This document shows, piece by piece, positions 22,168-43,412 of a DNA stretch of 46,789 bases. The notes beneath the pieces are model-generated. The model was not told the DNA's origin and ran no database searches. It worked only from the letters and a program-made list of their open reading frames with translations. A program made the translations under genes and the position numbers. This stretch comes from Gemmatimonadaceae bacterium (lineage in GTDB: Bacteria; Gemmatimonadota; Gemmatimonadetes; Gemmatimonadales; Gemmatimonadaceae), in contig DASXUN010000018.1 in assembly GCA_036504815.1 (NCBI GenBank), positions 1 through 46,789 on the forward strand, in the 5' to 3' direction. The number at the start of each line of letters is the position of its first letter. Position 1 is the stretch's first letter.

Positions 22168-23510
22168 TGAGCGCCCACGATACTCCCGCCCCGTCGCGCG
22201 AACGCGTGGTGGCGGCCATCGACAAGCCGATTCCGGCGACCATCAAGCAGGCCTTCCTGGCGATGTTCGTCGCCGGCTTCGCCGTCTTCCTGTACGGCGT
22301 CGCGCGCGGCAACGGCCGCGCGTGGCAGGCCTTCCATGTGAACTGGCTGTTCTTCACGACCATCGCGTCGGCCGGCGTGACGTTCGTGGCGGTGCAGCGC
22401 ATCACGACGGCGCGCTGGTCGCGCTCGGTGATCCGCTTCCTCGAGGGGTTCGTCGCCTTCCTCCCGTTCGCGTTCGTCGCGCTGATGCTCACCATCTTCT
22501 TCGGCGGCCGGGCGGTCTATCCGTGGTGGGACATGCCGGGGACCGGCGAGCTCATCCCCGAGAAGAACCTGTACCTGAATCACACGTTCTTCTGGGCCCG
22601 GTCCATCGGCGTGTTCGGCGCGCTGGTGGCGCTGCAGGTCTGGTACGTGTGGACGTCGGTGCGGCTGGACGTCGGCGTGACGCCCGAGCACGGCGCCAAG
22701 TGGGCGGCCGGCATTCGCGCCGCGATGCGGCGCAGCTTCGGCGAGGAGCGCCGGGAACTCCATTCCACCCACAGCCGACAGGGGTGGATGGCGGTGGTGA
22801 TGGCGCTGCTGTTCGGGTTCGGGTGGGTCGTGATGGCGTGGGATCACAGCATGTCGCTCGACATCCACTTCTTCAGCACGATGTACGGCTGGCAGGTCTT
22901 CATGGGCGGCTGGGTCGTGGCGCTGATGATCTTCAGCGCCCTCGTGCGGTGGTTCAACCATCACCTCGGCGCGCCGGACCTGATCACCGAGAAGCAGTAT
23001 CACGACATCGGCAAGCTGTGCTTTGCCTTCACGGCGTTCTGGGGCTACCTGACCTTCTCGCAGTACCTCGTGATCTGGTACGGCAACATGCCGGAGGAGA
23101 CGCACTTCTTCACGCTGCGCCTGACCGGCGCGTGGAAGACGGCCACGGTGTCGGTGGCGATGCTGATGTTCACGCTGCCGTTCTTCGGCCTGCTGAGCGT
23201 GAAGGCCAAGCTGTACACGCCGACAATGATGTTCTTCGCCGCCTGCTCGTTCGTCGGGCTGTGGCTGGCGCGGTATGTCGAGGTGTATCCGTCGATCTAC
23301 GGGCCGCGCGCGCTGGGTGAGCTGCCGGCGCTGTGGAAGTGGAACCTGGCCCTGTTCGTCGGCTTCCTCGGGGCGTTCGGCTGGTTCTACACCCAGTTCA
23401 TGGACGGCTTCCCCAAGATGCGTGTCTTCCTGATGACGTCGCCGTATCGCGACGAGGTGCAGGTGCCGTGTGATCCGGAAACCATGGAACCGCTCCCTGC
23501 GCATGAATAG
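22167..23510 (+). CDS. actF: Alternative complex III subunit F, second NrfD-like membrane subunit
   Basis: A 447-residue integral membrane protein with about ten helices, related to ActC. Recognisable parts are WQAFHVNWLFFTTIASAG near the start, WWDMPGTGELIPEKNLYLNHTFFWARSIGVF and, late, YHDIGKLCFAFTAFWGYLTFSQYLVIWYGNMPEET. ActF is the second quinone-oxidoreductase-like membrane subunit and a proposed proton path. It is the last act gene; no cytochrome oxidase gene follows within the window. A repeat and the four-helix-bundle cassette begin 17 bp after its stop. Confidence 0.95.
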   Translation: MSAHDTPAPSRERVVAAIDKPIPATIKQAFLAMFVAGFAVFLYGVARGNGRAWQAFHVNWLFFTTIASAGVTFVAVQRITTARWSRSVIRFLEGFVAFLPFAFVALMLTIFFGGRAVYPWWDMPGTGELIPEKNLYLNHTFFWARSIGVFGALVALQVWYVWTSVRLDVGVTPEHGAKWAAGIRAAMRRSFGEERRELHSTHSRQGWMAVVMALLFGFGWVVMAWDHSMSLDIHFFSTMYGWQVFMGGWVVALMIFSALVRWFNHHLGAPDLITEKQYHDIGKLCFAFTAFWGYLTFSQYLVIWYGNMPEETHFFTLRLTGAWKTATVSVAMLMFTLPFFGLLSVKAKLYTPTMMFFAACSFVGLWLARYVEVYPSIYGPRALGELPALWKWNLALFVGFLGAFGWFYTQFMDGFPKMRVFLMTSPYRDEVQVPCDPETMEPLPAHE

Positions 23511-23527
23511 ATCCGTGCTGGGCCAGT

Positions 23528-23553
23528 GATGGCGGATGGCGGAGGGCGGGTGG
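23528..23553 (+). repeat. GGCGGATGGC-type repeat, left flank of four-helix-bundle cassette
   Basis: The stretch consists of units such as ATGGCGG, ATGGCGG, AGGGCGG and GTGGCAG. The same units occur in inverted orientation at 24004-24041, on the other side of a small gene, and as another inverted pair at 43262-43412. Confidence 0.7.
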
Positions 23554-23572
23554 CAGATGCGGCGGGCCGGGG

Positions 23573-23938
23573 CTATCCGGTCCGCCGGTTTGCGTTGCGG
23601 CGGACGGCTTGGAGGAGGCGGACGAGTCTCGGGACCAAGCGGTCGAGTTCGGCGTGCAGTGCCTCGCAGTCTGGGACAAGAAGCAGTCCGGCATCCTGCG
23701 CCACATGCAGGTGACTCGCGGTTTCGCGCGCGGACGCAACTGAGATGGCGATGTAGCGCGCGAAGCTCGCTTGCGACTCGGACGCCGCGCCCTCGGCGAG
23801 GTTGGCGGGGATTGCACGGACAGAGCGAAGCAACTGGGCGCGCAGATCGCGGTCTCGAACTCTCGCCGCGACTGCGCTGCAGTTGGCAGCGAGGGCTCTC
23901 GCCTGAGCGTAGACCTCGAGCTTGTGCAACGGATACAT
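23573..23938 (-). CDS. Four-helix-bundle protein (23S rRNA intervening-sequence protein family)
   Basis: A 121-residue, all-helical protein beginning MYPLHKLEVYAQARALAANC. The centre, LRAQLLRSVRAIPANLAEGAASESQASFARYIAI, is the hallmark of the four-helix-bundle / S23 family (TIGR02436 type), with the conserved N-(L/I)-AEG. Members occur in rRNA intervening sequences and as free genes; Avd proteins of diversity-generating retroelements share the fold. Their role is not settled; nucleic-acid binding is plausible. A TTG two codons upstream (23944) is an alternative start. The gene is bracketed by inverted GGCGGATGGC-type repeats (23528-23553 and 24004-24041), is opposite in strand to the act and ccm operons, and sits between actF and tRNA-Ala, so it looks like an inserted cassette. 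No reverse transcriptase is nearby. Confidence 0.85.
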   Translation of the reverse strand: MYPLHKLEVYAQARALAANCSAVAARVRDRDLRAQLLRSVRAIPANLAEGAASESQASFARYIAISVASARETASHLHVAQDAGLLLVPDCEALHAELDRLVPRLVRLLQAVRRNANRRTG

Positions 23939-24003
23939 GCCCAAATCCTGCGGCCGCTGCCGCGTACCGCGTCATCACGAGAAGGCATGGTCATCATTCG
24001 AGT

Positions 24004-24041
24004 GCCGCCCGCCATCCGCCATCCGCCATCTGCCATCTGCC
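24004..24041 (-). repeat. GCCATCCGCC-type repeat, right flank of four-helix-bundle cassette
   Basis: The stretch reads as GCCGCCC followed by GCCATCC, GCCATCC, GCCATCT and GCCATCT units. It is the inverted counterpart of 23528-23553 and lies 65 bp upstream of the four-helix-bundle start and 35 bp before tRNA-Ala. Confidence 0.7.
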
Positions 24042-24076
24042 CTTCCCACCCATCGATACTTAGATTTGTGCACGTC

Positions 24077-24149
24077 GGGGCGTTAGCTCAGTTGGGAGAG
24101 CACCGGCTTTGCAAGCCGGGGGTCATCGGTTCGAACCCGATACGCTCCA
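24077..24149 (+). tRNA. tRNA-Ala (anticodon UGC)
   Basis: A 73-base cloverleaf. Acceptor GGGGCGT pairs with ACGCTCC (one G-U), D-arm GCTC/GAGC, anticodon stem CCGGC/GCCGG with loop TTTGCAA giving anticodon TGC, variable loop GGGTC, T-arm ATCGG/CCGAT with loop TTCGAAC, discriminator A. CCA is not encoded. A hairpin follows 7 bases later. Confidence 0.97.
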
Positions 24150-43259: not shown

Positions 43260-43261
43260 GG

Positions 43262-43412
43262 ATGGCAGAGGGCGGATGGCGGATGGCCGATGGCCGATGG
43301 CCGATGGCCGATGGCCGATGGCAGATGGGGAGAGCGTGCGCTCGATCCGGCATCACTTCCGCGCGCAGCGCAATCCGCTCTCATCCGCCATCTGCCCTCC
43401 GCCATCTGCCAT
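43262..43412. repeat. Inverted GGCGGATGGC-type repeat pair with heptamer tandem array
   Basis: The left part (43262-43326) has GGATGGC/GGCAGATGG units and about five consecutive GATGGCC heptamers. The right part (43383-43412) has the complement, ATCCGCCATCTGCC followed by CTCCGCCATCTGCCAT. About 55 bp separate them. The units are the same as those flanking the four-helix-bundle gene at 23.5-24.0 kb. The element lies between convergent genes, so it may also act as a terminator. Confidence 0.75.

Follow-up and report, generated by a model that had tools for sequence, protein, structure and literature searches.

The window analysed here, a 46,789-nucleotide stretch of a Gemmatimonadaceae genome, carries a small gene for a four-helix-bundle protein between actF, which belongs to the alternative complex III operon and ends at 23510, and tRNA-Ala (24077-24149). 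The gene is read in the opposite direction to its surroundings, between inverted repeats, and the locus raises the question of whether gene and repeats belong together and, if so, as what kind of element. Proteins of the PF05635/S23 family are widespread, their structures have been solved (2gsc, 2rld), and their function is unknown; for the heptamer repeats known from Xanthomonas, cyanobacteria, and others, the descriptions include no partner gene. Should gene and repeat form one system, the function of the protein and the missing partner of the heptamers become questions that can be tested jointly.

The cassette, which runs from 23528 to about 24041-24043, consists of the four-helix gene between inverted arrays of the heptamer GGCGGAT (Table 1). 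The first-pass annotation had described a TIGR02436-type gene bracketed by units in opposite orientation, about 515 bp end to end, between the end of the act operon and tRNA-Ala and against the surrounding strand. The gene (above the cut-offs of both family profiles), its placement, and the length from array limit to array limit were all borne out. The opposite orientation also stands, as the inverted arms (23528-23555 and 24003-24030, 447 nt apart) are 93% complementary, but the units turned out to be tandem 7-mers, GGCGGAT and GGCAGAT, rather than isolated decamers, and the arrays stretch past the arms, to ~23559 and ~24041. An alternative TTG start of the gene at 23944 (ORF 23573-23944, minus) would give a product of up to 123 aa. 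RNA folding predicted the paired arrays as the terminal stem of the cassette RNA (z = -4.1). No target-site duplication was visible by inspection of 23520-24050; the insertion is older than the genus, and a duplication may have decayed. A general conserved 5' element inside the cassettes was not found either, apart from a weak GRTGACG-like word and a hairpin of the 11-mer family.

Table 1. Coordinates of the cassette, its interval, and a gene-less array pair in the window
Feature	Position	Strand	Basis or remark
Left array, about four tandem heptamers GATGGCGGATGGCGGAGGGCGGGTGGCAGAT, degenerate GGCGGAT unit	23528-23559	+	Repeat inspection
Four-helix-bundle gene (S23/IVP family)	23573-23938	-	121 aa from ATG; profile, AlphaFold, and fold matches
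Right array, about five tandem heptamers running the other way (GGCAGAT/GGCGGAT in minus-strand reading)	24003-24041	-	Repeat inspection
Entire inserted interval, actF to tRNA-Ala	23511-24076		Only ~55-120 bp in several other genera
Gene-less inverted array pair, GGCGGAT unit	43261-43410		Between a sugar ABC permease gene (+) and an hsp20-type gene (-)

The window ORF matches the TIGR02436 profile with 69.1 bits (cut-off, 24) and PF05635 with 66.1 bits (cut-off, 33.8). Only this four-helix family was above cut-off, with no match to a HUH tyrosine transposase. The AlphaFold model is a confident four-helix bundle (pLDDT 96.7) that resembles Xcc0516 (TM 0.81-0.86 to the chains of 2gsc) and also matches BT_0352 (2rld) in fold, and the profile search returned the same two solved relatives. 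Avd is a more distant fold match (TM 0.76 to 4dwl; also 8ub7 and 8ube), with a sequence identity of 9%. The protein is basic (pI ~10), no transposase or nuclease could be recognised among its matches, and neither PADLOC nor PHROG assigned it to a defence or phage family. Judged from its codons, the gene is under purifying selection, with a dN/dS of ~0.20 that equals that of actF and no stops in 10 orthologs. Its dS among congeners is three times that of actF at equal dN/dS (1.71 vs 0.57), for which codon bias of actF, local hypermutation, or conversion are candidate causes. Four further TIGR02436 matches in the window genome (L034-L037) cover the C-terminal three quarters only and lie in longer open frames. 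Their inverted repeats are weak, distant, or absent, mostly without a clear bracket; they are possibly a separate, vertically inherited subfamily and were excluded from the set of 63 cassettes used below.

For each gene, the 350 bp that precede it were aligned locally with the reverse-complemented 350 bp that follow it; the best alignment gave the bracket score, and the threshold was set at 16. This score was reached by 55 of 63 cassettes from Gemmatimonadaceae and their relatives (87%), compared with 3 of 333 genes predicted in control regions, 1 of 1520 positions drawn at random, and 1.2% of shuffled left-right flank pairs. A scan of named genomes supplied 75 usable relatives from other groups of bacteria and archaea, namely Acidobacteria, Bacteroidetes, Planctomycetes, Proteobacteria, Clostridiales, Actinomycetes, Verrucomicrobia, Chloroflexi, ANME-1 archaea, and others; 46 of them reached the threshold, as did 3 of 551 control positions from these loci, so that ~40% of the cross-phylum members stay under it. 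The clear cross-phylum cases are mostly 7-bp arrays, and five of the seven cyanobacterial plasmid copies examined score at least 16. These alignments establish that the gene and bracketing inverted arrays occur together in most members tested, in many phyla. An artefact of chance or composition in a G+C-rich genome has practically no probability left as an explanation. The window is indeed G+C-rich and words like GGCGGATGGC do arise by chance (12.5 one-mismatch sites expected in the window), but 31 such sites are observed, the exact GGCGGAT dimer is present in 65 copies across the 3.5-Mb genome and its reversed control in none, random positions reach the threshold in 0.07% of cases vs 89%, and the bracket pattern is also present in A+T-rich Nostoc plasmids. 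The reversed-pattern, random-position, and cross-phylum tests together refute it.

Two side observations concern the scores themselves. In L222 (79 bp upstream of the gene), L244, and L252, the inverted ends are very long and near-perfect (scores 71, 155, and 144), a pattern that suggests recent homogenisation between both ends. In the Gemmatirosa-like genome G025, control genes at L117:5115-7568 have inverted repeats with scores of 39 and 28, possibly dispersed arrays of a resident cassette or another element. One hit in G025 agrees in position with Gemmatirosa kalamazoonensis plasmid NZ_CP007129, which makes a Gemmatimonadaceae origin of the window most likely.

A single GGCGGAT unit common to all family members could be rejected: this heptamer flanks the window gene only, which led to the finding of gene-specific units. 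Other family members are bracketed by units of their own, in the window genome an 11-mer CAACAGAGAAA and a 10-mer AGAGTACGAC, and in relatives 7-, 8-, and 12-mers. Units differ between paralogs in one genome, which are no more alike than random pairs, and across all cassettes the units resemble each other to the extent that the proteins do (Mantel r 0.49, p 0.0005), whereas sharing a genome makes no such difference. Part of this link is due to vertical inheritance at a single site. The comparison establishes that repeat units are specific to gene lineages and that several gene-unit pairs coexist in a genome. This bears on the view that the heptamer arrays are independent host repeats and that the gene is a passenger, inserted into or tolerated within existing pairs. 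Gene-less arrays do far outnumber cassettes, and in G016 the equivalent site is occupied by an array pair that lacks the gene. We nevertheless consider a passenger gene improbable, because the 87% association involves gene-specific 7-, 8-, 10-, 11-, and 12-mers, stands against <1% for other genes of the same lineages, and recurs in unrelated phyla.

Some cassettes outside the family lie in apparent essential operons, at sites that differ among related genera. Those of Xanthomonas (L265, L270, L274) stand directly before accC, a gene name assigned from sequence, and those of Pseudoxanthomonas and a Lysobacteraceae genome (L267, L300) within an apparent carA-carB, with heptamers other than the GGGAATC type. 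On a plasmid of Nostoc edaphicum, a cassette (L308:1483-1851) with GGGGAGT/TAGGGAG heptamers is placed between the genes for the beta and alpha chains of ribonucleotide reductase.

How the repeat behaves when species diverge can be followed at the actF/tRNA-Ala site, where 10 of 10 congeners have an ortholog (52-70% identity) with heptamer arrays in each, the left array of G003 being lost in an assembly gap. The cassette heptamer varies by species (GGCGGAT, GGCAGAT, GGTAGAG, GGTAGAT, GGGAGAC, GGGAGAT, or GGTRGAC), usually with the change on both sides of the gene, and the counts establish that in the species counted it is accompanied by a genome-wide peak of the same unit. GGCGGAT dimers are most frequent in G007 (90) and the window genome, G000 (65; next genome, 15), GGGAGAY trimers in G008 (94) and G001 (47; next, 14), and GGTRGAC trimers in G002 (340) and G010 (217; next, 19). 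For all three units, the top two counts belong to the two species whose cassettes carry that unit, each match having a chance of 1/55. The GGTRGAC test was blind to composition, as only the total counts of G002 and G010 were known beforehand, whereas the GGGAGAY test was not fully blind, partial listings of G001 and G008 having been seen before the prediction. Unit-by-unit counts cover the species of these three units, and the other congeners are outside them. Sampled dispersed arrays of G005 are mainly GGCAGAC/GGCGGAC and its cassette is GGTAGAG. The 11-mer, the bracket of a second gene family within the genus, is present in 34-177 copies in six congeners (window genome counted in) and in no more than five copies in each of the remaining five; the 49 other relatives lack it altogether. 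Cassettes with it were found in four of the six 11-mer-rich congeners; only sibling units were found in G004 and G010, although assemblies break in repeats. Gene-repeat covariation between lineages, a criterion taken from RAYT/REP pairs, is met, with G005 and the 11-mer in G004 and G010 as exceptions.

The cognate unit is, by direct search, dispersed as gene-less arrays and pairs that are mostly intergenic. The listed genomic sites are arrays of 2-15 units, several of which form inverted pairs around a short, gene-free spacer, and 19 of the 20 gene-less sites analysed are intergenic, often near a 3' end. The pair at 43261-43410 lies between convergent genes and starts 2 bp past a stop codon; G007 carries an array at the equivalent place. 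Arrays directly after tRNA-Ala are present in G005, G007, and G008 and missing from the window, and a comparison of array gain and loss found arrays to be sparse across the 47-kb syntenic region. Such placement is what might be expected if the protein were a repeat-binding regulator, or a nucleoid or RNA-processing factor, that acts at gene ends on transcript ends or translation, the arrays owing their spread to slippage, gene conversion, and selection instead of to the protein. The basic, conserved protein would suit that role, and the heptamer literature proposes regulation together with a repeat-binding protein (PMC4679880, PMC4692102). A regulator alone, however, leaves unexplained the inverted bracketing of the gene, the paralog-specific units within one genome, and the turnover of units between species; we regard it as unlikely, although it deserves to be kept in mind.

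In three other genera of the family (G026, G028, G033), the interval between actF and tRNA-Ala is short and has neither cassette nor arrays. In G016, it contains a gene-less inverted pair of GTGACTA, a unit that also stands next to the G016 cassette gene elsewhere and occurs in a random 20-kb stretch of that genome. Since the cassette is present in all congeners and its site is empty in other genera, it was probably acquired along the stem lineage of the genus, with vertical inheritance thereafter. The first-pass annotation had likened the locus to a small mobile or repeat-dispersing element of the REP/RAYT kind. The likeness holds for co-occurrence, dispersal, and empty sites, whereas mobilisation by the protein remains undemonstrated. 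Of the checks it had proposed, the test of co-occurrence came out far above chance in both sets of genomes (55/63 vs 3/333; 46/75 vs 3/551), and the genome-wide search found the unit dispersed without the gene and tending to match the cassette unit by species. The search for an empty site and a target duplication succeeded in part, with empty sites in other genera and a gene-less cognate pair in G016, but with no duplication and a cassette that is vertical genus-wide. The outcome that would have spoken against the proposal, a gene without repeats, repeats spreading independently, and no empty sites, was mostly not encountered, the exceptions being the mismatches between species and unit. The finding is wider than that proposal in that cassettes have their own units and that their closest relative proves to be the intervening sequence of 23S rRNA.

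We suggest, with moderate confidence and from sequence comparison alone, that the element has two parts, a basic four-helix protein and the cognate inverted tandem repeat on which it acts, and that the cassette is its gene-bearing copy; that the protein mobilises the repeat is inferred. By analogy, a REP/RAYT-like gene-repeat pair is the best reading. The protein, probably a pentameric ring like its relative Xcc0516, would specifically recognise its repeat as DNA or as an RNA hairpin, might help host replication or repair enzymes to copy arrays to new intergenic sites, and might promote the homogenisation of arrays through host enzymes. The catalytic steps would be those of the host, because the protein has no transposase or nuclease match and a reverse transcriptase was undetected in most genomes. 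The data suggest a widespread, overlooked gene-plus-repeat system that may spread DNA repeats. The broader proposal, that S23/IVP proteins are trans-acting, non-enzymatic, repeat-specific drivers of selfish 7-12 bp tandem arrays in bacteria and archaea via host replication or repair, and that intergenic cassettes, rRNA intervening sequences, and many orphan heptamers are one system, is put forward only tentatively and may well prove wrong. Movement was not observed directly, no target duplication was found, and the cassette site is identical in all 11 congeners, all of which speak against the two-part element, as do the unit mismatches of G005, G004, and G010, the slow dispersal in Xanthomonas, and the cross-phylum members under the threshold.

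A mechanism at the RNA level has also been considered, in which a transcript folded by the arrays is cut by RNase III, as in intervening sequences, and returned to DNA by a reverse transcriptase, the Avd-like protein serving as an accessory. The fold similarity to Avd of diversity-generating retroelements, the predicted terminal stem formed by the arrays, and an anatomy like that of the Coxiella element with its RNase III cut in the stem (PMC4990558) agree with it. Yet RVT_1 was found neither in the window genome nor in 50 of the 60 genomes searched, some of them gene-rich, which makes a retroelement mechanism unlikely and already weakens this reading. In addition, the gene is on the strand opposite to actF and is therefore not read in the actF transcript. 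We give RNA-level mobility only a slight chance; a reverse-transcriptase partner for the four-helix gene was rejected, as most genomes searched lack one.

Among known systems, the two-part element we favour can be compared with four. RAYTs (TnpA-REP) are single-copy genes with inverted short-repeat flanks, gene-less copies between genes, and lineage-specific pairing. The cassette shares the single gene with inverted short repeats, the dispersed intergenic copies, and the lineage-specific gene-repeat pairing, and so meets the RAYT/REP criterion of inverted flanking copies of a genome-dispersed repeat. It does not meet that of a HUH tyrosine transposase gene, as its protein is a four-helix bundle, and its repeat consists of 7-12 bp units in tandem, whereas a REP is a single imperfect palindrome (background on REP/REPIN and RAYT: PMC2817692, PMC3116915, and PMC8266576). 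With Avd it shares the fold and the character of a basic scaffold protein, at an identity of only 9%; the criterion of a reverse transcriptase near the avd gene is not met, the RVT_1 search of G000 having found none.

The 23S rRNA intervening sequences of Coxiella burnetii and Leptospira share with the cassette the S23 protein family, a length of ~430-520 bp, and complementary ends able to form a stem around the ORF, and the criterion of an S23 ORF within such ends is met. The Coxiella sequence has an S23 ORF, complementary ends, GACAGAT heptamers before the ORF, and an RNase III cut in the stem (PMC4990558); the heptamers ahead of the ORF are GGCAGAT/GGCGGAT in the cassette. Unlike these sequences, the cassette lies not in a 16S or 23S rRNA gene but between protein and tRNA genes, both of its arrays are built from a tandem unit that is dispersed genome-wide without the gene, and its gene evolves under purifying selection, in contrast to the degrading ORF of Coxiella. 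Intervening sequences that carry an S23 ORF might be the same type of element, landed in rRNA; if so, the S23 ORFs in fragmented 23S rRNAs would mark one landing site of a general element.

The orphan heptamers, finally, include GGGAATC in Xanthomonas, GGGGA(C/T)T in Nostoc, and TAACTGA in Beggiatoaceae, and their published descriptions propose regulatory roles and a repeat-binding protein (PMC4692102, PMC4679880). In X. campestris, GGGAATC forms 186 dispersed arrays, with 70 convergent pairs, and 83% of the arrays are conserved in position between two Xanthomonas species, so dispersal is slow (PMC4692102). The cassette repeats resemble them in unit length, intergenic placement, and convergent array pairs; the difference is that no partner gene is named for the orphan heptamers in the accessible parts of PMC4692102 and PMC4679880. 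No link of S23 or four-helix genes with dispersed heptamers was found in the open-access papers searched, subscription journals and preprints being outside the search. Four-helix genes of Xanthomonas, relatives of Xcc0516, and of a Nostoc plasmid are bracketed by GGGAATC-type and GGGGAGT-type units, respectively. This tie between orphan heptamers and a four-helix gene is the new point, and it suggests a partner gene for repeats such as GGGAATC of Xanthomonas.
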